Shown here: positions 3,443-28,594 of the stretch, piece by piece
How the letters are laid out: the number at the start of each line of letters is the position of its first letter
Numbering within the stretch: position 1 is the first letter of the stretch
Source of the DNA: an uncultured Bacilli bacterium
GTDB lineage: Bacteria; Bacillota_I; Bacilli_A; RFN20; CAG-826
DNA: 52,065 nt
Assembly: GCA_944336335.1 (NCBI GenBank)
Contig: CALVLC010000082.1
Coordinates: forward strand, 1-52,065
Direction: 5' to 3'
Program-made: the position numbers and the translations under genes
The notes under the pieces: generated by a model
Databases searched by the model: none
Seen by the model: the letters and a program-made list of their open reading frames with translations, nothing else
Told to the model about the DNA's origin: nothing

Positions 3443-5656
3443 TTAATCACCAAATCTATCAAGTAAATCTTTATATTTATCTTCATATTCTTTTGGAATT
3501 TCTGTTTCTTGAATAGGATTAGATACTGATACCAATTTAATTTCAGACGGATTTTTCATTTTGTCAATCACATCAAAAGCTGGTGTAGCTTCTACTTTAT
3601 TTACCTGTTGTGCATTTACTAAAACTGAATTTGAATTAGTATTAGTATTTTTATTCTTTTCACCAACTATAACAGGTTTATATCCTTTTGGTTTAATTTC
3701 TTGCATATGTGAATGTTTCAAAGCATATTTTTCACTTTCAGCAGTAATAAAATTATCTGAAGCATAATAAATAGGCCCACCGGCATCTTTACACATCCAG
3801 AAATTAGGATGCTTTTCTAATTGATATTTTTTTGTTTTGAATGGATTAACACCACGAACTATTACTATTTCTTGATCACCTGGCATACGAAGTAATTCAT
3901 CAGGTGTCATTAATTTTCTACCAATTTTAGAATATCCACTACTTATATGATCTTTACTATCCCTATTTTGTGATTTTGTGGTAATAGTTGCTTCACCTAA
4001 TTTCCCTGAAATATAATTTAATGTTGATTCTGGATTATCCTGACCATTCGCACCTAAAAAGACTGTACTATCACAGTTATCCATTATAATCTGGGCTTTT
4101 TTATCATATATTGCTTCTAATTGTTGTTTCGACTGTAAAATAATTGTTGCGCTTATATTTCTTGAACGCATTGTACTTATCTTTTCTGCAAAATCTGGAA
4201 TCTGACCTATATTTGCAAATTCATCAAGAATAAATCTTACGTGATATGGTAATCTTTTTCCAGGACAGTCTTCATCAGCGTGATTATAAAGGTAAGAAAA
4301 CATTTGTGTATATAAGATAGCTGTTAAGAAGTTATAACTTTTTTTATCATCAGGCATTACACAGAAAAGTGCTGTCTTTTCATCACCAACGGTTCTAAAA
4401 TCAATAGAATCACTTGAAGTAAGTAATTTTATATCATCAAGTGTAAATAATGCTAAATCATTCATAGCCGTAGTGATAATTGAAGAAGCAGTTTTTTCCG
4501 ATCCGGCTGCCGCTTTAAAAGTTGCGTATTGTACAACAGCCGGGTGTCCATCTTTAAGTGTAGAATTTTCCTTTAAGTCTTCCATTAAAAAACCATATTC
4601 AGATTGATCTGCACCTTCTTCTGGCATACAAAAACCTAATAACTTATATACTTGCGCCCAAGTCCTTTCTTTTGGCCTACATTCATAACAAAGGTAAAAG
4701 CATATTGAAAGCAAAATACTTCTTTCAGCCTTTTCCCAGAAAGGATCACCACCTTTAGAATCACCCTTCATATTAGCAATTAAAGCGTCAACTAATATAA
4801 GAATATCTGCAGCTTCATTTAAATAAGCGAATGGGTTATATGTATCGGAATATTTTGTATTCTTAGTATTAAATACTTTAATCTTATATCCATTCATTCT
4901 AAGGAAATCACCTAAATCTTCTAAAAGTTCGCCCTTTGGATCTGTTATAACAAAGCTGCAGTTTGCTTGAAGTACATTCGGTTTTACAAAGAACCTTGAT
5001 TTACCTGCACCAGAACCACCAAATACTAAAACATTCGCATTTCGATCATTCAAACTAGACCTTTTTAATTTACTTACTAATTTTTTATTTAATTTTAATT
5101 CTTCATCCAATTTTTTACGTAAATTAACACTTTCATTTTCAGGTAATAATAAAATCTGATTTTGTAAATCACGCATTTTTTGATCTTGTTCCGCTATTTG
5201 TTTTTCAAAATTAACTACTTTTTTAGATTTATCTAGTTTAATTCTTTCCAATGAAAGTTTTACGTTGTCAGAAAGAATAACATTCATATCAGGTCTATTT
5301 TTTAGCTTCTTCGATACAAATTTTTTATTATAGTCTTCTAAGTTATCATTCCATTTAGCAGTACCGTGTTCTTTTCCAGGCATTGACGCTTTTAAATTAG
5401 TTTTACTGCTTGCAAAAATAAATAATACGACAGATAAATAACATAATATCCAAACCGGCATCTGTGAAAATTCAAGCGGAAATATATCGAATGGTTTTAA
5501 TTGAATTCTTTCTTGTAAAGATCCGAACAAAACAACAAAATCATCTGTCCCTAATTCAACACTTAACCTGCCTAAATGTAAACACACAAAACAGACTGCA
5601 AATAATCCAAGTAAAAATAATATAAAATATATAATAAAAGTTTTCTTATTTTTCAT
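3443..5656 (-). CDS. VirD4/TraG-type T4SS coupling protein
   Basis: 737 residues from the ATG at 5656. Two N-terminal membrane spans (about residues 5-30 and 55-75) are followed by HGTAKWND, then Walker A GGSGAGKS (about residue 212) and Walker B LDEFANIGQ (about residue 490), plus IILQSKQQL and the MTPDELLRMP stretch. These are hallmarks of the coupling ATPase that recruits the relaxosome and protein substrates to the channel. Unusually, about 60 charged residues with coiled-coil character (around 138-203, KQIAEQDQKMRDLQNQI within it) are inserted between the membrane part and Walker A. The C-terminal 110 residues are low-complexity and polar. It sits upstream of the pilin in the T4SS block. 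Confidence 0.95.
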   Translation of the reverse strand: MKNKKTFIIYFILFLLGLFAVCFVCLHLGRLSVELGTDDFVVLFGSLQERIQLKPFDIFPLEFSQMPVWILCYLSVVLFIFASSKTNLKASMPGKEHGTAKWNDNLEDYNKKFVSKKLKNRPDMNVILSDNVKLSLERIKLDKSKKVVNFEKQIAEQDQKMRDLQNQILLLPENESVNLRKKLDEELKLNKKLVSKLKRSSLNDRNANVLVFGGSGAGKSRFFVKPNVLQANCSFVITDPKGELLEDLGDFLRMNGYKIKVFNTKNTKYSDTYNPFAYLNEAADILILVDALIANMKGDSKGGDPFWEKAERSILLSICFYLCYECRPKERTWAQVYKLLGFCMPEEGADQSEYGFLMEDLKENSTLKDGHPAVVQYATFKAAAGSEKTASSIITTAMNDLALFTLDDIKLLTSSDSIDFRTVGDEKTALFCVMPDDKKSYNFLTAILYTQMFSYLYNHADEDCPGKRLPYHVRFILDEFANIGQIPDFAEKISTMRSRNISATIILQSKQQLEAIYDKKAQIIMDNCDSTVFLGANGQDNPESTLNYISGKLGEATITTKSQNRDSKDHISSGYSKIGRKLMTPDELLRMPGDQEIVIVRGVNPFKTKKYQLEKHPNFWMCKDAGGPIYYASDNFITAESEKYALKHSHMQEIKPKGYKPVIVGEKNKNTNTNSNSVLVNAQQVNKVEATPAFDVIDKMKNPSEIKLVSVSNPIQETEIPKEYEDKYKDLLDRFGD

Positions 5657-5717
5657 ATCATTCACCTATCAAAAATAATTCTATCAATAATTTCAAACAT
5701 AAACAAAAAAGTGTAAT

Positions 5718-5746
5718 AAAAAAAGAACCGGTATGAAACCGATTCT
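5718..5746 (-). terminator. Rho-independent terminator after the 5746-6432 gene
   Basis: On the minus strand AGAATCGGT pairs with ACCGGTTCT (one mismatch) and is followed by TTTTTTT. It separates the tagged unknown gene from the VirD4 gene. Confidence 0.8.
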
Positions 5747-6432
5747 TAACGTTCAATATCCTTAGATTTTGTATTTTCTTGTGTTTTCTTAATATTCTTT
5801 TCAGCAACTTCAATTTTTCTATCTATGCTTTCAACAGCAATATTATTGTAATCCTTATCTGTTAAATCGTGTATTCTACTTTTTTCATTAATTAAGTCAG
5901 TAATTTTATCTATATCTTTTTTATAAGCTACTATTGCAAATCCATCACCATAATAAATTGATGTAAAATTAAATCTGTCTTCTTTTGCCATATTCTTTAC
6001 ATCTTCCCTAAACAGATTTATTTCATCAACTGTTTTAAATCCTTCTACTACAATCAATGGTTCATCATTCGCAACATTCATAAATTCAGTAGGATTAAGT
6101 TCCATATCTAAGGAATTATATTTACAATTATTAGCACATCTTTGTGCAACATCTAAATCACTATCCCTAAATAATACATAATCCTTTCCTTCATTTTGAA
6201 ACCTGATACATAAAAGCCCTTCTTTATCAGCAAGATCCATAAATTCATCATTAGCTGGAAACGTTAGGAAATTCCCTTTATGTTCCTTAAATACATTAAC
6301 AACACTTTTTTCTTGGTCAGTCTTAGATTCTTTTTCAAATAGTTTTATCAAAGCTGCTAATATTCTTGAAACAAAATCCATTGAAGTATTAACCATAGTC
6401 ATTGAACTATCATATGCTACTTTATTTTCCAT
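5746..6432 (-). CDS. Unknown cytosolic protein with shared C-terminal SLDxKL...IER tail
   Basis: 228 residues, starting at the ATG at 6432 after AAGGTGATTGAT. No signal peptide, no membrane span and no domain I recognise. The middle (FKTVDEINLFREDVKNM...FTSIYYGDGFAIVAYKKD) looks like a compact alpha/beta fold. The last 27 residues, beginning SIDRKIEVAEKN and ending KSKDIER, match the tails of at least four other proteins in this window (16372, 18658, 24844 and 25372), one of which is ArdC-like. Being placed immediately upstream of the VirD4 gene, it is a candidate transferred or T4SS-associated protein. That role is inference; the shared tail is seen directly. Confidence 0.8.
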   Translation of the reverse strand: MENKVAYDSSMTMVNTSMDFVSRILAALIKLFEKESKTDQEKSVVNVFKEHKGNFLTFPANDEFMDLADKEGLLCIRFQNEGKDYVLFRDSDLDVAQRCANNCKYNSLDMELNPTEFMNVANDEPLIVVEGFKTVDEINLFREDVKNMAKEDRFNFTSIYYGDGFAIVAYKKDIDKITDLINEKSRIHDLTDKDYNNIAVESIDRKIEVAEKNIKKTQENTKSKDIER

Positions 6433-6442
6433 ATCAATCACC

Positions 6443-13532: not shown

Positions 13533-15842
13533 ATGCTGACAGATAAAGATTGGGAAAAAGCTATAGACTGGGCTAAAAGAAATGCTGGTAAATCCACAAT
13601 GATGTATGAATACTTAAAAGACGCCAACGGAAAATATACTTTAAATCCAGAAGGTGAACGTATTCAAATTCAAGTAACGAAAGATAACAAGCCTATTTTT
13701 TGTAATGATGAAGGTGAACAATTAATAATGCACTTTTTCCGTGAAAAAGTATTAGATCCAAAAGAATTAGGTTCATTAATACTTGTTAAGGTAGGAAAAT
13801 ATCAGTATTACAGAATCAAAAAGGTAGTTCAATTAAATAACGGTGATAAAAAAGAAATTAAAGTCCAGGATAAAAATTTAGCAAAAACTTTATCAAATAT
13901 GCAAAATACAATTCGTGCCTATCAAAATCAAACTTACGTAGGCGATACTGTATTTTCACCTGATGATACCTTATATGATGCTTGTTTAAAATGGTATTCA
14001 CATTATTCTAAAGTAAAAAAATGTAAAAATAGTACAATAACAAATTTTAGCAGTAAAATTGGTATTCTTGAACGTGAAGAATTAAATCAATACAGTAAAA
14101 TGCCTATTAAAAACTTTACATATAAAGATTTCCAGGCATTAGGCGATCTGTTACAAAGGGTTCCAAGATTAATTGTTGGAAAAGGTAAAACTAGAATAGT
14201 TGGAACAGAAACATATGCCGAATCAACTATCGCTTTATTATGGTGGTGTATAAGAAGAACATATCAATATTTACGTGAAAATTTTCCAGGGTATTCAGAT
14301 ATTTTTGAAAATGTAGAAGCACCTTATGATACAGAATGGAAAAAGAAATTTAAGCGGTATAATGTATTTGATGAAATTTCAATGTTAATTTTTGAAAAAG
14401 TCGCAACTGCTACTTATGGAAATGGAATACCCTATTTTAAACACGGTGAAGCCCTTGTATTTTTAATGTATTCCGGTTTAAGAAAAGGCGAATTTGCAGG
14501 CTTAACAAAAAAGGACTTCACAAAATTTAATGATAATACAGGCAAAATAAGAATTAATAAACAGATTAAAAATGATCCAGAAATAAGATTTGACGAAAAT
14601 GGTTTGCCAATTACAACGCCAAACGGAAAGCCCAAAAAATTCACAAAAATGGTGTTATCACCAGGCTTGAAAACGTTAGGGTCAGAACGAACAGTTTCAT
14701 TAGGAACAGAAGCAACCTTAATAGCAAACAAGAAATTAAATCAAAGTAAAACAGATAAAAATGATTTCTTATTTAAGCCATTTTACCGGCACGAAGATGC
14801 AGAAAAACAATTAAATTTTGAAATTGATCAAAGATTACTTCCAGAATACAAATGCCTTAAAGGTAAATTATTTCTTGATCCGCAGCACTTAAATAAAACT
14901 TTGGAATCAATATTAAAAAATTGTATTAAGCACCCAACATTTAATAAATATAATGATTTCAATCCAGAAACATTTACTGTTCACGATCTGCGACATACTG
15001 GAATTTCACACGCACTTAGAATGGGTATGGCTATTCAAGATGTTGCACTATGGGCCGGACATAATGATCTAAGTACAACTATGACTTATTACAACCAAAT
15101 TGTAGCACAGCAAAAAGAACACGCTAAATTATTATCATCTTCTACCACTACAATAGATCGTTCAGAAGTCAGGAATGTTGATTTAATGTTTGAAATAAAC
15201 GGTGTAGTAAGACATTATGATAACAGAAATGGATTAATTGATCCTAAAGACTTTGAAGAAATGTTAAATGGTTTTGTAGAATTACAGAAAGATAAAACTT
15301 TTCTACGTGGCACACCAGGCAAACCGGCTAATGACACTTTAAACCTTCATTCTGCAAAGAATTTGCCTTTAAAACATACAAAAGTAATGTTTCCAGCAAA
15401 AGGTGATTTTACTATTGAATACAGTGAACTTAAATCAAATAATACATTAACACAAGTTTTTGGAATAGAATCTTTGCTTCGTATATGTGATAATATGATA
15501 AAATTACATAAAATCAATTTTACTACAGAAGAAATATATAAATATATCCTATCTAATGTAGATGAAGTAGATGATATGAAAAAGGTTTTATTCGTAGAAT
15601 TTATTACAAACAGACCAGACGCATATAAAGAAATGTTGAATCTGGAATATGCTGGAATACAAACAGCAGAATTTACAGAAGCTACTAAAAAAATTTATCT
15701 TGAAGATTGGGAAACTAACAAAAAAAGATATATTGTAAAAATCTTAAAAGTTTTTGTTGAAAAAGGTAATGCTTGTGAAGACGATGCAGAAAAATTATTA
15801 CTATTAAAAATCATAGGCAATATAGAACAATTGAAAATTTAA
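13533..15842 (+). CDS. Tyrosine recombinase/integrase with long C-terminal extension
   Basis: 769 residues. Catalytic signatures are visible: first arginine in YSGLRKGEFAGL (about residue 313), HDLRHTGISHAL (about 487), WAGHNDLSTTMTYY with the nucleophile tyrosine about residue 525. An N-terminal region of about 130 residues resembles arm-binding domains, followed by a core-binding SAM-like region (residues 150-260). Typical integrases end shortly after the catalytic tyrosine; this one carries about 240 extra residues, with no recognised domain, rich in lysine and glutamate. It probably integrates and excises the element. The candidate attachment sequence follows 170 bases downstream. Confidence 0.92.
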   Translation: MLTDKDWEKAIDWAKRNAGKSTMMYEYLKDANGKYTLNPEGERIQIQVTKDNKPIFCNDEGEQLIMHFFREKVLDPKELGSLILVKVGKYQYYRIKKVVQLNNGDKKEIKVQDKNLAKTLSNMQNTIRAYQNQTYVGDTVFSPDDTLYDACLKWYSHYSKVKKCKNSTITNFSSKIGILEREELNQYSKMPIKNFTYKDFQALGDLLQRVPRLIVGKGKTRIVGTETYAESTIALLWWCIRRTYQYLRENFPGYSDIFENVEAPYDTEWKKKFKRYNVFDEISMLIFEKVATATYGNGIPYFKHGEALVFLMYSGLRKGEFAGLTKKDFTKFNDNTGKIRINKQIKNDPEIRFDENGLPITTPNGKPKKFTKMVLSPGLKTLGSERTVSLGTEATLIANKKLNQSKTDKNDFLFKPFYRHEDAEKQLNFEIDQRLLPEYKCLKGKLFLDPQHLNKTLESILKNCIKHPTFNKYNDFNPETFTVHDLRHTGISHALRMGMAIQDVALWAGHNDLSTTMTYYNQIVAQQKEHAKLLSSSTTTIDRSEVRNVDLMFEINGVVRHYDNRNGLIDPKDFEEMLNGFVELQKDKTFLRGTPGKPANDTLNLHSAKNLPLKHTKVMFPAKGDFTIEYSELKSNNTLTQVFGIESLLRICDNMIKLHKINFTTEEIYKYILSNVDEVDDMKKVLFVEFITNRPDAYKEMLNLEYAGIQTAEFTEATKKIYLEDWETNKKRYIVKILKVFVEKGNACEDDAEKLLLLKIIGNIEQLKI

Positions 15843-16371: not shown

Positions 16372-17568
16372 TTACTTTTCATAAATAATATCTGATCTAT
16401 TTTTGCTTTTTGTAATATTATTTTTTGCAAAATTCAGTTTATCATCTAAAGACTGTTCATAATTGTCAACTTCCATAATAGATAAATCAGGGTTATCTTT
16501 TATAGCTGCTTCAATACAATCTTGTCTGGTAAAGTTGTCATCATATTCATAAATCTTAAAATTATCCACATATGATTGATATTGTTTACTAAAATAATTA
16601 TCTAACAATTCTTTAACTTTTTCATTATCTTTTGGAATTATGATAGCCTTTGCTTCTATAAGATTAATAGCCCTATTAGGCTTTGCTTCTAAATATGATA
16701 CAGGTAAATCGTGTACTTCTTTCGCTAATTCTTTAATGCATTTTATATCATCATCATTAATATCGTAGTCTTTAAAAATCTTATAAATCGTAGACTTACT
16801 TGAATTAATCCTAACCTTATTTAAATCCTTTCCTACTAAATGGCTATATTCATTACCTTTATACTTACATTTTAAATCATTACATAAATCTTTAAATTTT
16901 TGTTCGCAATTTTTATATAATTCATCTGCCGAATCTTTACTTACAATCCTATCAATATCAATTTCAGAAAACAAAAACAATCTTTTACTTAAAAGTGCTT
17001 TCCAAGAATTCATAGTAGAAAAGCCATTAGTTTGTTCTTTTCCTTTTCCAGCTTTCATAGCTTTATGAATCGTATTTAAATTATAATCTTCTGTTATAGA
17101 ATCAAAATTTTTAACTTCACCAGGCTTTTTTAAAATATCATTTGTCTTTTTAATACCTTTTTTAGAAATACATTCATTAAGTCGTTCTGAAACATAATCA
17201 TATTTAGAACTATCAAAATTGGAATAAACAATATGTCTAACTGTTTCACCGAAGTCATATTGGCCTATATTATCAATTTCATACTGACTAAAATTTGTTC
17301 CAAGAACTTCATTAATTTTATCTGCATCAAACTTATATAATATTTTAGGAAACCTAGCAGAATAAGCATCGGCTTCATAAATTAAATTATCACTATTTTG
17401 TTCTGGATCAACACTACACTTATTAAATAAAAAACTTATTTCACCAAATTCATTATAATCAAAATCAGAATTAGTAATTGCTATTGAAGGCGCAGGCCAA
17501 CCGCCTAAATCTAACACCTTACTTAAATTTGATATTTTTTCATTATGTACTGCAATTAAATTACCCAT
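16372..17568 (-). CDS. Polyvalent-type ICE protein with shared C-terminal tail
   Basis: 398 residues, start 17568 after AAGGCGG. The N-terminus (VHNEKISNLSKVLDLGGWPA, then PSIAITNSDF and FGEISFLF) resembles, from memory, the opening domain seen in large multi-domain 'polyvalent' proteins of Firmicutes conjugative elements. The rest is alpha-rich and unrecognised. The tail, starting SLDDKLNFAKNNITK and ending DIIYEK, belongs to the group shared with the ArdC-like neighbour and others here. It lacks membrane features. Two copies of the element promoter motif lie upstream. A role in protecting or establishing transferred DNA is inferred from the company it keeps. Confidence 0.72.
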   Translation of the reverse strand: MGNLIAVHNEKISNLSKVLDLGGWPAPSIAITNSDFDYNEFGEISFLFNKCSVDPEQNSDNLIYEADAYSARFPKILYKFDADKINEVLGTNFSQYEIDNIGQYDFGETVRHIVYSNFDSSKYDYVSERLNECISKKGIKKTNDILKKPGEVKNFDSITEDYNLNTIHKAMKAGKGKEQTNGFSTMNSWKALLSKRLFLFSEIDIDRIVSKDSADELYKNCEQKFKDLCNDLKCKYKGNEYSHLVGKDLNKVRINSSKSTIYKIFKDYDINDDDIKCIKELAKEVHDLPVSYLEAKPNRAINLIEAKAIIIPKDNEKVKELLDNYFSKQYQSYVDNFKIYEYDDNFTRQDCIEAAIKDNPDLSIMEVDNYEQSLDDKLNFAKNNITKSKNRSDIIYEK

Positions 17569-18657: not shown

Positions 18658-19596
18658 TTATTTTTCTATTTCATTATATTTTTGTTTATTATTATGTTGA
18701 ATTTTTGAAGCCACAATATTTAATTTTTTATCAAGTGAATTATTAAATTCTAAACCTTTAATTTGTTCAAGTTTACTGTCAATTTTATTAATTAAGTTAT
18801 CAGAAACCGACTTAATAACTTCCATATTTTCCTTTAATGTTTTAGTGTCATTTCCGTGTGTCCAACCAGCAACATACTTAAATGTATAATCAGAAGTATC
18901 TAAATTTAAATGATCACAAACAATAAAAGCGATTGATTCAGCACGCACTTCTTTTGTGCTTCGATCTGCCTTACTATATTCAGAAGCAGGATTATCTACG
19001 ATAGAATGTGCTATTTCGTGAACCATAGTTTTTAGTGTTTGTGTTTCCGGCAAATCGTTTTGTATTTTAATTTCATTAGTAAAAGGCATATAATAACCAT
19101 TTGGGCCATTTAAATTAGCATATGAAATAGGAACATCACTTATTTCAATAAGAATATCTTTTAATGTGTCATAATTATTAACATTAGCAGTTAGTAATTC
19201 AGGTTTAAATTCAGGTAATTCCTTACCGTGTGTTTGTGATACATCGAAAACATAAGCCTTTTTAAAATTCAGAAAAGTATGTTCTTCTGTTTCTGATACA
19301 GATTCACCATCTACAATTTTTTCAACTTCAATTTGTTTTTTATAAGGTGTAGGGCTTATAATCATAATGCCCTTTTCATTCTTATTAATAAAACGACCTA
19401 ATTGTTTCCATTTCGTAAAGCCAGCGACTTGTGTTGCATCTGGTTTTTGTAAATATATTAGCAACTGATTATTTAAACTATAATTATGAAATTTAGAACA
19501 AAAAGAAAGCCAATTTTTGTATTCATAACTATCCAAAGCCTTTTGAACACCCTGTTCTAATTTTTCTGTTATTTCTTTATACAATTTTTTATCCAT
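18658..19596 (-). CDS. ArdC-like antirestriction protein (ssDNA-binding domain plus zincin)
   Basis: 312 residues. The N-terminal domain (about 1-125: NNQLLIYLQKPDATQVAGFTKWKQLGR region) matches the ArdC/TraC-type ssDNA-binding fold, and the second domain has the zinc metallopeptidase motif HEIAHS (about residue 193) with a downstream glutamate-rich helix RAESIAFIVCDHL. ArdC proteins protect incoming plasmid DNA from type I restriction, and relatives are carried with the DNA into the recipient. The last 26 residues, beginning SLDKKLNIVASKI and ending YNEIEK, are the tail shared with several unrelated proteins in this element. That makes this gene the functional anchor for the translocation-tag idea. 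Confidence 0.85.
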   Translation of the reverse strand: MDKKLYKEITEKLEQGVQKALDSYEYKNWLSFCSKFHNYSLNNQLLIYLQKPDATQVAGFTKWKQLGRFINKNEKGIMIISPTPYKKQIEVEKIVDGESVSETEEHTFLNFKKAYVFDVSQTHGKELPEFKPELLTANVNNYDTLKDILIEISDVPISYANLNGPNGYYMPFTNEIKIQNDLPETQTLKTMVHEIAHSIVDNPASEYSKADRSTKEVRAESIAFIVCDHLNLDTSDYTFKYVAGWTHGNDTKTLKENMEVIKSVSDNLINKIDSKLEQIKGLEFNNSLDKKLNIVASKIQHNNKQKYNEIEK

Positions 19597-21793: not shown

Positions 21794-22048
21794 ATGATCA
21801 GGCTAAAGAAGGATGTGATACCATTGTATAGGCTAAAACACGGCAAGATTATGATCAAACTAGATCGGCTTCTTCCAGAAAAAGGTATATCTAAGTCAAA
21901 ATTTGCACAGTATGCAGAATTACAACGAACACAACTAAATCGTTATATTAATAATGATGTAGAAATGATTAGTCTTGATGTTCTAGCCCGTATGTGTGCA
22001 GTTTTAGAATGTGATATTTCCGATATATTAGAATATGTTGAAGATTAA
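21794..22048 (+). CDS. XRE-family helix-turn-helix regulator
   Basis: The frame gives up to 84 residues. The helix-turn-helix is clear: LLPEKGISKSKFAQYAELQR, TQLNRYINND, then LDVLARMCAVLECDISDILE, the classic Cro/CI-like end. The start is uncertain. The ATG at 21794 has no ribosome site and would sit at the transcription start. TTG at 21824 follows AAGAAGG, and ATG at 21851 gives the usual short XRE form beginning MIKLDRLLPEKG. Its stop abuts the stop of the convergent gene ending at 22049. Likely a local repressor. Confidence 0.85.
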   Translation: MIRLKKDVIPLYRLKHGKIMIKLDRLLPEKGISKSKFAQYAELQRTQLNRYINNDVEMISLDVLARMCAVLECDISDILEYVED

Positions 22049-22402
22049 TTACCAGTTAGCATAGTTTTCTGATTCAATACCATCTATATTAGTATTGTTT
22101 TCAATAAGTTTATTTTTATCAGGATTTATAATATTTAAATCAGTTTCGTCTAAAATGATATTAAATTTATTTGCTGACTTCTGAATATCATTAATATAGT
22201 TTTTACGGTAATCTTTAATAAGTTTTTCCAGTTCACTTAATTCAACCTGTAAGTGAACTTTTTTATTGCCACGAATCAAATCAATATAGCATTCTGTCGA
22301 ATCCGAATCATAAATATAATTCATTCCTTCAACCAGTTTAAGTTTTTTATTTATATCTTGAAGCGCATTTAACTGTAAATCTGTTTTAATTATTTTAGCC
22401 AT
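22049..22402 (-). CDS. Unknown small protein convergent with the XRE gene
   Basis: 117 residues from the ATG at 22402 (GAAAGGAA upstream). Soluble, with heptad-like helices in the middle (LQVELSELEKLIKDYRKNY) and an acidic asparagine-rich tail ending ENYANW. The two convergent genes meet with no spacer and no terminator, so the messages may overlap at their 3' ends. No family recognised. Confidence 0.6.
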   Translation of the reverse strand: MAKIIKTDLQLNALQDINKKLKLVEGMNYIYDSDSTECYIDLIRGNKKVHLQVELSELEKLIKDYRKNYINDIQKSANKFNIILDETDLNIINPDKNKLIENNTNIDGIESENYANW

Positions 22403-22741
22403 ATAAATCAAATTCCTTTCATAAAATTATTACTTGAATAATATTATTCTAAAATTATATATGTTTGTGTATAATTATACACTATTATAAATCTATATTA
22501 AGACAAATTTTAATATAATCCATATCTTTATAAAAAAGTTATTTAAAATGTTATGATTCATAATAACCAGACTATGTTGCTTCTTCTATTATAAAAGTTC
22601 ATTCAATGAAGCGATAGCGAATTGAATGATATATTAAATACTATAATATTGAAGTAAATTATAAATAATTAATACCTAAATCAAGCCAGGTATTAATTCT
22701 TCAGTATTAAAATACAGCAAACGTTAAATTCTTTAGTATTT

Positions 22742-22911
22742 GTATTAAGCCAGTTAATTATATATTTCATCTTCTGTATTAAGCCAAGTAGTTATGTATT
22801 TTAATATTTTTATCTAGCCAAGTAGTAATGTAATTTATCTTCTATATCAAGCCAATTAGTTATATAGTTCTATATCTGTATTAAGCTAATTAGTTATTAT
22901 ATATATCTATA
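22742..22911. repeat. Five tandem degenerate 34-bp repeats
   Basis: The AAGCC-type core recurs at 22747, 22781, 22815, 22849 and 22883, exactly 34 bases apart each time. The unit is like GTATTAAGCCAAGTAGTTAT followed by an AT-rich half ending in TCTTCT. Units differ by substitutions but never by length. A looser copy lies at 22683. Candidates are protein-binding iterons (origin or partition site). No replication or partition gene is visible beside them. Confidence 0.75.
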
Positions 22912-23117
22912 TGTATTATATATAGTATTGTAAACATTTTATTATAATTTCATTATGTTAAGTTATTATTTTTTGTATTGTACTGACTTCCTGCATAATT
23001 GCCCTTAGCCAATTTAAAAATAGACTACTGCAAATAATTTTTGCTTCATTAAATATGAATTCTTATATGACACTTCTTAATATCTGTATTTGATATTTAC
23101 TGTTTTTCAAATCATAT

Positions 23118-23648
23118 AAAAAAAGCGGCGTTATTTCGTCCTGCCGCACATCCATTACTGGAATCATAAGTATGCCCTTCTTACACGCTAGAAATATAAG
23201 ACCGAAACTAAAACCATCCTTCTGCTTTTAATCACATAAAACCCATCACTGGTTATTGCTTTATGCCGAACAATGAAGATCTTTCATTGGAACTGTCAGG
23301 CTAAAACATAACTGCCTTAGACACGGGTATCAGAACTTTACCCAGAACTTAAGTCATATAAGATTTTGTACTGGTTATGTACAGTAAGGAATCAAAGTCT
23401 TATAAAACTTAGCAGCGGCTTGTTTTAATGGTGCTGACCCACAATTTACATTTTATACTGGAACGGGACCCAGATAGACCCGATCTTATCTAGCATAATA
23501 GATCGGTGCCACTTCTATGATTTGCATAGACACAATCAACTGATCATCCATTTGTGTGTAAGTACCGTTGACGCCTTACAACCACTATTTAATTGTAGAA
23601 TATGTGAAGAACATTCCTAATTCTTTTAATCACATATATTAATTGCTT
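23118..23648 (-). ncRNA. Large structured noncoding RNA (about 530 nt), possibly ROOL-like
   Basis: An island clearly richer in G and C than its surroundings, without reading frames. On the minus strand it begins after a CATAATAT promoter motif and ends in a strong terminator (GCGGC...GCCGC then seven T, 23118-23147). Many helices can be read: ATATGTGA/TCACATAT (23600-23637), CCGATCT/AGATCGG (23480-23506), TATAAGA/TCTTATA (23357-23404) enclosing TGTAC/GTACA, GGGTA/TACCC, and CAATGAA/TTCATTG (23271-23289). A 14-base direct repeat TATGTGATTAAAAG occurs near both ends. Length, ornateness and a mobile-element home recall the ROOL/GOLLD class, but I cannot confirm family membership by eye. Confidence 0.7.
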
Positions 23649-23667
23649 CGTATATATTATGACAGAT
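23648..23667 (-). promoter_or_regulatory. Recurrent element promoter motif of the large RNA
   Basis: The minus strand has GATCTGTCATAATATATACG, placing the probable RNA start near 23648. Confidence 0.6.
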
Positions 23668-23827
23668 CACTTTTAAAATAACTTAAAAAAATCACTTTTT
23701 TAAAAATATTTTTTAATCCACTTCATATATCATTATCGATCATTTTTTTGTATTTGTAATTCATATATAATATCTGTTATAAAAGTTAAAATGTAATATG
23801 GTTTTTATTTCAATAAATAAAAAAGGC

Positions 23828-24091: not shown

Positions 24092-24116
24092 AAAAAAGAT
24101 CAGGTTAAACCTGATC
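24092..24116 (-). terminator. Terminator of the 24105-24752 gene
   Basis: The minus strand pairs GATCAGG with CCTGATC around a five-base loop, followed by TTTTTTT; it overlaps the last codons. Confidence 0.85.
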
Positions 24117-24752
24117 ATCATTATTCAAGTCTTTCTTAGGTTTATATATTTTAAAATAATAAATAGCGCCTAATATTCCAAATGGTAAAGTAAAAATCAA
24201 ATTTGCTTTGATAATATCTAACACTGAATTTTTTAATGTATCGCCAACTGTATTTTGGTTATTCAAATCTTCACTAGTTTCTACCTGAATATCGTTTCCA
24301 CCATCTTCAATAACTGAAGGTGTTGCTACTTCTGATTCTTCTATTAAACTTTCACCGGAATAATAAATATCTAAACTTGCAGCCTTTCCATTTCCTAAAC
24401 TAAAACTATTTACTGAAGTACTTAATGGAAAATCACCAAGATTATCACCGGCAGCCATTACTACGTCAACAGTATAAGCACCTGCAGGTAACGTTTCCCT
24501 GGCAACATACCCATTCTGCCTATAACAATAAACAGTGTAGAAATCACCCACAGTCTGATTATACACTTCTATAACGACATTATACCCAGGCCAACCTTCA
24601 GGTTCTTTAAAAGTTATTACAGCAGTTCCAGACCCAAGGCCAGGATCAGCGACAACAGTTTCTTCTACTTCTGCCGTTGAAGCAAATGTAGGTATAGTAA
24701 TACAAAAAATCATAAACAATGATATTAATATCTTTTTAAATCTATTTATCAT
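24105..24752 (-). CDS. Secreted protein anchored by a C-terminal membrane span
   Basis: 215 residues from the ATG at 24752. Signal peptide about residues 1-25 (ILISLFMIFCITIPTFAS). A beta-sandwich-like domain of about 100 residues follows (GTAVITFKEPEGWPGYNVVI, later LPAGAYTVDVVMAAGD), resembling carboxypeptidase-regulatory or Cna-B-type folds in general look. Then come an acidic linker containing EVATPSV and a C-terminal span (LIFTLPFGILGAIYYF) with basic KPKKD inside. So it is held on the outer face of the membrane. The ATPS string links it to other surface proteins of the element. Exact family unknown. Confidence 0.75.
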   Translation of the reverse strand: MINRFKKILISLFMIFCITIPTFASTAEVEETVVADPGLGSGTAVITFKEPEGWPGYNVVIEVYNQTVGDFYTVYCYRQNGYVARETLPAGAYTVDVVMAAGDNLGDFPLSTSVNSFSLGNGKAASLDIYYSGESLIEESEVATPSVIEDGGNDIQVETSEDLNNQNTVGDTLKNSVLDIIKANLIFTLPFGILGAIYYFKIYKPKKDLNNDDQV

Positions 24753-24820
24753 AATCATCACCTATTTCAAAAATAATTTCTTTAGGTAATATCAAATAGA
24801 ATTTAATTTATGTAATAAAA

Positions 24821-24845
24821 AAGGCCGGTATTAAACCGATCCTTT
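24821..24845 (-). terminator. Terminator of the 24844-26664 operon
   Basis: The minus strand pairs GGATCGGT with ACCGGCC (imperfect), followed by TTTTTT. Confidence 0.75.
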
Positions 24846-25353
24846 ATCTTTCTATTTCGTTAGCTTTGTCATTACCCTTTTGAATAGCTTTATCAGCAAC
24901 CGAAAGTTTTTCGTCTAATGATTGACATTCGGCTTCAAGTATTGGCCCATTACAATAAACCTGACCGTCAGTTTTACCTTCATAAACTATTTCATTAAAG
25001 ACAAAATCTTTAGCGTCTTCTGACAGTTCAGTAAATTTTGCTTTCCTATTATTTTCAGCACCAGCTTCTTGAACAATTAAATCTACATTGAAATCGTAGT
25101 TTAAGTGTCCCTTACTTCCATCATAAGTAAAATTACTATTTATATTTCCATCGTTATATATAAAATCAATTAGGTAATTTTTTGTTTTATCGTTCAAACA
25201 ATCAAAAGGAATGTTTCCTTCCCTACGTGAATTGTCAATATCTTCCATTGTAATTTTACTAGAATCGAAAAAGTTTTTAAAATCTTCTTCTGACATAGGC
25301 CCATAAAAATTTATATTCATAGAACCCTGTCCATACCAACCAACTGTATTCAT
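24844..25353 (-). CDS. Unknown soluble protein with shared C-terminal tail
   Basis: 169 residues, start 25353 after AAAGGTAGG, 18 bases past the stop of the upstream gene, so one operon with it. The body has no known domain: glycine-poor beta elements (GSMNINFYGPMSEEDFKNFF) and an acidic middle. The final 25 residues begin SLDEKLSVADKAIQKG and end KANEIER, almost the same as the tail of its operon partner (SLDSKLSVAENNITK, ending DITIER). The two bodies are unrelated by eye, which argues that the tail is a portable signal rather than a trace of whole-gene duplication. Confidence 0.75.
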   Translation of the reverse strand: MNTVGWYGQGSMNINFYGPMSEEDFKNFFDSSKITMEDIDNSRREGNIPFDCLNDKTKNYLIDFIYNDGNINSNFTYDGSKGHLNYDFNVDLIVQEAGAENNRKAKFTELSEDAKDFVFNEIVYEGKTDGQVYCNGPILEAECQSLDEKLSVADKAIQKGNDKANEIER

Positions 25354-25371: not shown

Positions 25372-26664
25372 TTATCTTTCAATAGTAATATCTTTTGATT
25401 TAGAACATTTTGTTATATTATTTTCAGCCACACTTAATTTGCTATCTAGTGATTCACTTTGTTCTAATTCCAAATTAATTTCTTTAACATATTTATCAAA
25501 GTCCTGTTCTGATAATTTTAAATTATATATATCTGGTGTAATTAAATGACGATTACCAACAATCATACAATCAGAATTAGTACTATTTTCATTTACTATA
25601 CTTGGTGTAGAAATTTCAATCATCTGATCACTTTCTTTCAAGTCAAAAAATACCTTGACAGTGTATCTATCAAACATATCACGATTAACGATATTATTTA
25701 AATCTATACCTAATTTTTCAAAAACCAATTTTTCATTATCAGTCTTATTAATCAAATCTTGAATAGTATATTGTTTATAAGTATTTTTATCGTAAATAGT
25801 ATTTCTTCTAAAACTAACAGATTTAATACTATCTAAATTTATATTACTGTCAAATAATTCCTTAAATAATTTTTGGCTATTAGAATTAGCAATCACATTA
25901 GATGATATTCCATAACCAGAAGTAAGCATAGCACGAAACTGATCTGTATTAACTGGAAAAGAAATAGATTTAATAGTGCCGTATTGACTAACACCTTCAT
26001 AATAAATTTGTACCGTCTTCTTTCCTTCCATTGATTTATACAAATCTTGTTTCATTTTTAATGGTGTAGGCATATTAGCTTTAAACTGATCATAAACAGC
26101 TTTTGAATTAACCCAAGCAGCATAACAACCCAGCCAAGTATTATTCTTTTCATCGACCTTACTATTTACATAATCATTAACCATCTGTTCTGGATTTTGT
26201 AAATAGTCAACTACAGATTTTGCTTTAAAGTCAATATTATGTATAAAATAATTTGGCTTTTCTAATTCTTCATCTTTAATAATTAATTTTTCTGCATTAA
26301 ACACATCATAATGTGTGATAGGGCCTGTAGGCAATCCTTCAAAGTGTTCTGTTATCTTATCACAAACTTTATCTAATATTTCATTAGATACATCATTAAA
26401 GGATTTTACATACCTTTCATCTAATTGAAAATCACTTATATAACCAAATTTATAATCCAAATACAAAAGGTCATTTTCTTTATCTAACAGTCCCTTAAAA
26501 TTTAAATCATTAGAAATATGTCCATAACCATGTCCTACTTCATAAAGAACCTGGAATCTATCATTCAATTCAACAGCACATTGTTTATTAATTCTTCCAC
26601 GGACATCTTCAATATCAAAATAACCACCTTTCTTAATTAAATCAAAATATTTTTGTGTATCCAT
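25372..26664 (-). CDS. Unknown protein with shared C-terminal tail, paralogous to 26837-27676
   Basis: 430 residues, start 26664 after AGGTGATTAA. The N-terminal 150 residues are unrecognised. The middle resembles the neighbouring 279-residue protein: xxPxxLKxxxxLYxxxEGxKTxxIxY, then a stretch ending in the form DxIKxxxxxxNTIYxxx. The C-terminus ends in the shared tail (SLDSKLSVAENNITK...DITIER). It has no membrane features. In its operon it precedes the 169-residue tagged protein. Its untagged paralogue next door offers a natural comparison for what the tail adds. Confidence 0.72.
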   Translation of the reverse strand: MDTQKYFDLIKKGGYFDIEDVRGRINKQCAVELNDRFQVLYEVGHGYGHISNDLNFKGLLDKENDLLYLDYKFGYISDFQLDERYVKSFNDVSNEILDKVCDKITEHFEGLPTGPITHYDVFNAEKLIIKDEELEKPNYFIHNIDFKAKSVVDYLQNPEQMVNDYVNSKVDEKNNTWLGCYAAWVNSKAVYDQFKANMPTPLKMKQDLYKSMEGKKTVQIYYEGVSQYGTIKSISFPVNTDQFRAMLTSGYGISSNVIANSNSQKLFKELFDSNINLDSIKSVSFRRNTIYDKNTYKQYTIQDLINKTDNEKLVFEKLGIDLNNIVNRDMFDRYTVKVFFDLKESDQMIEISTPSIVNENSTNSDCMIVGNRHLITPDIYNLKLSEQDFDKYVKEINLELEQSESLDSKLSVAENNITKCSKSKDITIER

Positions 26665-27676: not shown

Positions 27677-28594
27677 ATGTAATTACCTTCCCTTCATAAT
27701 AATTTTCTATATTTTACTATTATAGCTGATTTCACCTGAAGTGTAAATGTACTTTAAGAAAAAAGCAATTTACATTATTTACCAAAATCCAAAGCCTATC
27801 TTCATAAAGAATAATCATAAGAACGAACACTAACATTCTTATAATTCATCCTTATAAATTTAATGCAAATAGTAGCCTTTCTAATTAGTATCAATATTAA
27901 TGATATTTGTATCATTACCAATATTCATAATCAATTTTCAGTCTTCCAGCCCTGCAGCCGACCAGACAATCTAAGTTAATAACCAGACAAACGCAGAATT
28001 AAAATCCAAACAAAGTTCTAAAATTTATTAATACCAATAATATTGATATTTTTTAAATATTATTTTTCATTAAAAGAATTTCAATTCTACAAAAACAAAT
28101 TTTATAAAATCAAAAATCAAAATTATCAAAATTCAAATTAATAATTTCAAAAAACAGCAAAAAGGAAATGCAAAAAATCCAATACAAAAAATCATTTTTT
28201 ATCGATATTTTAAGTGTAATAAAAGTCTTCTATTTTTATTTACAAGCACTGAACCAATATTAATTGTTTCGCTTGTCAGGGTGCTACGCCCTGAACCAAA
28301 GCGGGTTTCACCCACACCCGACCTTCATAGAAGGCCACACTACCGCTAACGCTAATAAATAAATCGGATTATTACCACAATCCGATCAAAAAAATATTGA
28401 AATTATGATGATTTAATTTTCCATTTAATAGCAGCAAAAAAATAGGTTTATCAAAATTAGCAAAGTAAAAGTTTTCATTTTTATTATCAGTTATCCCTAT
28501 TTATCGTTTTAAATGCAATTTTCATCATTTTATTTTCAATAGTACTTATTACGCAATTTACTTTTTAACTATTTTGATAATACAGGTGATAGAT
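27677..28594. other. Gene-free region upstream of the mobilisation operon
   Basis: About 920 bases with no gene. It holds two ACCAGACAA repeats (27961 and 27982), several TATCA...TGATA-type dyads near 27890-28040, an extremely A-rich strand (about 28050-28200), and the hairpin-rich GC island at 28249-28386 that I propose as oriT. The last 200 bases are plain AT-rich leader. Confidence 0.7.
28249..28386. other. Candidate origin of transfer (oriT)
   Basis: A compact GC-rich island in very AT-rich DNA, 210 bases before the relaxase operon. It has hairpins CAGGGTG/CGCCCTG (28277-28293), GGGT/ACCC within a CGGG/CCCG outer stem (28302-28320), CCTTC/GAAGG (28322-28334) and ATCGGATT/AATCCGAT (28363-28386). 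Direct repeats CTGAACCAA lie at 28249 and 28291. Hairpins beside a relaxase gene are the usual oriT layout; the nick site itself cannot be named. Confidence 0.6.

Follow-up and report, generated by a model that had tools for sequence, protein, structure and literature searches.

The window, a 52,065-nt stretch of DNA, carries a conjugative element and, within it, an island that is rather probably, to judge from its sequence, the gene of a real stand-alone RNA. Overall, the island is best explained as an untranslated RNA gene of the element, about 530 nt long, whose product would serve in trans as a folded scaffold, a reading that we give about an even chance; the scaffold mode of action, taken by itself, is a tentative suggestion drawn from analogy. 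A large noncoding RNA in a mobile element was what the initial annotation had proposed, and it is still the best-supported reading, since a shared promoter, a terminator, a missing frame, a global fold and an internal repeat are found together. We infer a scheme in which RNA polymerase would start near 23649 and stop near 23118, the transcript would fold back on itself with its 5' and 3' parts paired to each other, and the RNA would work in trans as a folded body rather than as a leader or an antisense RNA. The UAUGUGAUUAAAAG motif, repeated near both ends, may offer two identical points of contact, either to a protein or to another copy of the RNA; as a working analogy we take scaffolds or assemblies such as ROOL and GOLLD, to neither of which the island is held to be related.

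By its gene content the element is conjugative, as it encodes a VirD4-type coupling protein, a tyrosine recombinase and a relaxase (Table 1); it also encodes an ArdC-like protein, two N6/N4 methylases and a type I restriction system. In a search of 84,980 species genomes the nearest relatives of the coupling protein were only 48% identical to it, and the element is thus without a close sampled relative. The contig comes from a 2.0-Mb draft genome, 80% complete and with 3.8% contamination, and in tetranucleotide composition it stands apart from the other large contigs that were sampled, as mobile DNA or mis-binning would lead one to expect. The island sits within a cluster of genes whose products share a C-terminal tail, S(L/I)DxK(L/I)xxAxxxIxK...(D/E)IxR/K; the tail occurs in five otherwise dissimilar minus-strand proteins, among them the ArdC-like protein and a protein with a PBECR5 nuclease domain, and may be a common signal for transit via the conjugation machinery.

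Table 1. Coordinates, along the window, of the proposed RNA gene, its predicted parts and genes of the element.
Feature	Position	Strand	Details
Proposed RNA gene	23118-23649	minus	about 532 nt; start inferred, end at the last U of the run
Promoter AAGTTATTTTAAAAGTGATCTGTCATAATA	23655-23684	minus	-10 CATAAT at 23661-23656
Predicted 5' hairpin, 8 bp + 5 bp with 5-nt internal loop, holding R1	23600-23637	minus	pair probabilities 0.95-0.96; -9.0 kcal/mol
Repeat copy R1 TATGTGATTAAAAGAATTAGGAATGTT	23610-23636	minus	81% identity over 27 nt to R2
Predicted long-range helix, 5' arm, 18 bp, bulged (UAUGCUAGA UAAGAUCGG)	23480-23497	minus	pair probabilities 0.94-0.96
Predicted 7-bp hairpin CAAUGAA-AGAUC-UUCAUUG	23271-23289	minus	predicted fold
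Repeat copy R2 TATGTGATTAAAAGCAGAAGGATGGTT	23212-23238	minus	81% identity over 27 nt to R1
Predicted long-range helix, 3' arm (UCGGUCUUA-UAUU-UCUAGCGUG)	23184-23205	minus	pair probabilities
Predicted hairpin UCCA-GUAA-UGGA, GNRA tetraloop	23151-23162	minus	predicted fold
Intrinsic-type terminator GCGGC-13 nt-GCCGC-UUUUUUU	23118-23147	minus	predicted fold -8.4 kcal/mol
HTH regulator gene near the island	21794-22048		
VirD4-type coupling protein	3443-5665		
Tyrosine recombinase	13533-15842		
Relaxase	30474-33104		
Proteins with the shared C-terminal tail	5746-6441, 16372-17568, 18658-19596, 24844-25353, 25372-26664	minus	

As the initial annotation had it, the island is GC-richer and free of reading frames: its GC content is 36.5%, against 23.6% in the window's other intergenic DNA, 27.9% in the genes and 27% in the window as a whole, and no frame of at least 45 aa lies between 22411 and 23937. 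Because this frame-free, GC-richer island combines fold statistics beyond those of shuffles with a promoter and a terminator at its ends, its span is proposed as an RNA gene. A GC content unlike the surroundings, in an island that is single copy in its own genome and without relatives, would also fit a decayed gene or a leftover insertion, in other words degenerate foreign DNA that is functionless at present. This objection, raised at the outset, is answered in part, in that stops run throughout the six-frame translations of the island and no decayed protein is visible in them by eye; promoter and terminator, moreover, are intact at the exact ends, and the fold statistics exceed those of shuffles. 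Decay is kept as a reading, albeit an unlikely one.

For the RNA gene itself, the putative promoter provides the best new evidence. The CATAATAT motif recorded earlier is present on the minus strand at 23661 and is better founded than was then known; the start near 23649 is placed from the position of its -10. Judged by its distribution, the CATAATA of the proposed RNA is the -10 motif used by the element's own genes, a chance match being excluded because 9 of the 11 intergenic minus-strand copies have a gene of the same strand starting within the next 100 nt (p = 4e-4). By a promoter matrix trained on eight gene promoters of the element, with the RNA's site excluded, this site ranks fourth among about 104,000 non-training positions, and two of the three sites that outrank it (18601 and 47680) are upstream of genes. 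Many CATAATA copies carry a common extension, CATAATATNATTAGAAA, which recurs before element genes (minus strand, 50603, 43233, 36230, 35270, 18601, 17661, 17609, 9853 and 7551; plus strand, 47680) and may be the recognition site of one dedicated sigma factor or regulator.

At the opposite end, the terminator that had been called strong is real, with its stem and seven U (Table 1), although the adjective was generous. It appears modest and, in the prediction, competes with the closing helix: when the whole RNA is folded to minimum energy, the 3' arm of the terminator is paired with the RNA's 5' part instead. A consensus terminator scan missed it because its 13-nt loop is too long.

With a minimum free energy of -137.3 kcal/mol, the full-length fold has its equal in 1 of 200 dinucleotide shuffles. 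It contains 59 pairs that bridge distances above 200 nt, where shuffles give 23 plus or minus 15 and 4 of 200 do as well; in ensemble spread, 7 of 200 shuffles are as tight. For most 150-nt sub-windows the difference from shuffles is not significant, so that the fold signal would reside in long-range pairing, chiefly the 18-bp bulged helix; the longest uninterrupted long-range helix, of 9 bp, is alone not unusual (82 of 200 shuffles). The helices described in the initial annotation, including the 8 + 5 bp hairpin at the 5' end and CAAUGAA/UUCAUUG, are present in the predicted fold. Folding energy alone cannot choose the strand, the complement having a good fold too (z -2.85); that choice falls to promoter and terminator. 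A known ROOL RNA reaches a z of only -0.69 under the same folding tool, which makes the island's values respectable. Stand-alone structured noncoding RNAs are generically recognized by a fold more stable than that of shuffles and by a promoter and terminator of their own without a frame, and the island appears to have both, the former in its predicted structure and the latter in its sequence signals.

The 14-base repeat noticed near both ends (TATGTGATTAAAAG) is there, and is part of a 27-nt repeat whose copies, R1 and R2, agree at 22 of 27 positions, a level reached by none of 300 shuffles (a 14-nt run arose in 1 of 300). Inspection of the predicted fold finds R1 and R2 paired in different registers, so the copies share sequence and not hairpin shape; this shared sequence suggests a recognition motif.

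The main rival to an RNA gene is a role at the level of DNA, in which the island together with adjoining 34-bp repeats would be a single-strand origin, a replication origin or a partition site, its hairpins forming on single-stranded DNA during transfer. It owes this rank to the repeats and to a bracketing inverted repeat: about five tandem copies of an AT-rich 34-bp unit (TGTATTAAGCCAATTAGTTATATATTTCATCTTC; 22741-22918) lie just beyond the RNA's terminator, 200-380 bp away, and a 30-nt inverted repeat (22536-22565 and 23655-23684; 24/30, 0 of 100 shuffles) encloses repeats and island alike. That both strands fold well and that the element is conjugative also suit such a locus. The promoter-terminator pair, however, coincides exactly with the span of the island, 530 nt would make a long single-strand origin, and a separate, oriT-like cluster of GC-rich hairpins (CAGGGTGCTACGCCCTG, GCGGGTTTCACCCACACCCG and GACCTTCATAGAAGGCC; 28250-28375) is found near the relaxase, upstream of the methylase-relaxase genes, and is the likely origin of transfer. 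A DNA-level role for the island is accordingly held to be rather unlikely. The 34-bp repeats themselves may be iterons, mark a partition site or encode a repeat RNA; a type III toxin-antitoxin system, with 34-bp repeats before a gene, was considered and set aside because the 120-aa product matches no family. The inverted repeat takes in both the RNA's promoter and a second, facing CATAATA on the plus strand at 22559, from which a convergent transcript is possible.

Such a convergent transcript would suit a regulatory RNA, whether a long antisense RNA acting in trans or in cis or an attenuator of element genes (22049-22411 or 24105-24761, for example), as would the HTH regulator gene close by and the position of the island between cargo genes with the same promoter type. 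A leader is unlikely, however, because the next same-strand gene starts at 22411, about 700 nt beyond the terminator. When 29 of the element's translation starts were compared, no preferred antisense target emerged, none pairing with the RNA clearly better than with shuffles (best z -1.9), which lends no support to antisense action on the element's own genes, and the island is far larger than is usual for regulatory RNAs of these kinds. We regard regulation of this sort as distinctly improbable, and a free-standing RNA working as a folded body is preferred to it.

What speaks against an RNA gene, and leaves it unproven, is the missing homologue, and with it the lack of covariation and of any trace of long-term selection. 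By blastn, none was found in sets of 26 genomes of the genus, 224 of the family, 395 of the class, 279 of the order and 392 of the phylum, which are nested or overlapping; only stretches of about 20-60 nt without extension were returned, and several that were checked lay in frames. Phages, plasmids and 84,980 species genomes likewise gave no homologue. Two scans of 2.9 million viral contigs with patterns of the repeat motif returned a single match, inside a reading frame, and nine matches without further similarity to the island, respectively; patterns from three other stretches of the island gave seed-limited matches in these contigs, mostly in frames where checked, and a pattern scan of genome contigs with the repeat motif gave zero matches. 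At 80 loci around related coupling proteins, the RNA was found neither by blastn, nor by nhmmer, nor by a covariance model of its 3' third. The lack of homologues in blastn argues only weakly for absence, since a real ROOL used as query in blastn had no phage relative either; a ROOL pattern run on the viral contigs retrieved no ROOL.

Among 4227 Rfam families none matched the window at gathering score, and sensitive scans of the island, with E up to 10, gave chance-level matches only. The best of these was the ribosomal protein L20 leader (L20_leader, RF00558), at 19 bits against a cut-off of 58.7 and with an E-value of 0.3-0.6; the match runs through the island's terminator, but no infC, rpmI or rplT genes follow the island and the match is one of chance. 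The resemblance to ROOL and GOLLD first suggested for the island did not hold up in the Rfam search, which gave no significant match. The ROOL covariance model (RF03087; membership cut-off 99.1 bits) has no match in the island, with E up to 10, or in the whole genome, whereas the lncRNA of L. salivarius pMP118, our positive control, scores 130.4 bits in the same kind of search; GOLLD is not among the island's Rfam matches at E up to 10, ROOL serving as positive control. Prompted by a visual likeness of parts of the island to ROOL, we built a ROOL-core model from the Rfam consensus (model positions about 200-345, filters off). This model ranked a real ROOL first in 49 kb, at 18.2 bits, and the island is absent among its 37 matches down to 6 bits. 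Membership of ROOL was rejected, as both models detect real ROOL and pass over the island. A far-diverged ROOL RNA would account for the similar size and mobile setting, for a similar layout of the 5' hairpin and for UAAGGCAGUU followed by GCCUGACAG, a hairpin and GGCAUAAAGCA, which by eye recall the ROOL core, and the ROOL of L. salivarius likewise sits near an HTH gene (PMC5643018). Given the silence of both models on the island, this reading is already largely refuted and has very little left to recommend it.

To our knowledge, only a handful of bacterial RNAs of such size and complexity have been described, and the island, as a single sequence, probably represents a new kind of large structured RNA. 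That it stands for a new large ornate class of gut Clostridia conjugative elements, unrelated to ROOL, GOLLD or OLE, which would form a multi-copy RNA body or be moved with the DNA in conjugation, is a speculation that we think unlikely. ROOL, GOLLD and OLE have recently been solved and are RNA-only assemblies of unclear function, ROOL being a homo-octameric RNA cage. With ROOL the island has in common a length in the range of about 520-660 nt, the lack of translation, a transcription unit of its own, a place in mobile DNA and a multi-helix architecture with long-range pairing, the transcription unit and the architecture being predicted for the island; it differs in having no sequence or covariance-model similarity, and whereas ROOL is an RNA of phages and prophages, often near tRNAs, the island lies in conjugative surroundings, in a window in which no tRNA gene was found. 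GOLLD, which like ROOL forms RNA-only cages, exceeds 800 nt in many members and is found near tRNA islands (PMC12286853). The island resembles GOLLD as a large untranslated RNA of mobile elements, but is about 530 nt long, away from tRNA genes and without an Rfam match. It resembles OLE and other large Rfam RNAs as a large structured RNA of Gram-positive anaerobes, but matches no Rfam family beyond chance. If the reading is true, an RNA of a conjugative element that is unrelated to these would mean that large RNAs of mobile DNA arose repeatedly, and the island would offer a system for measuring loss and transfer.
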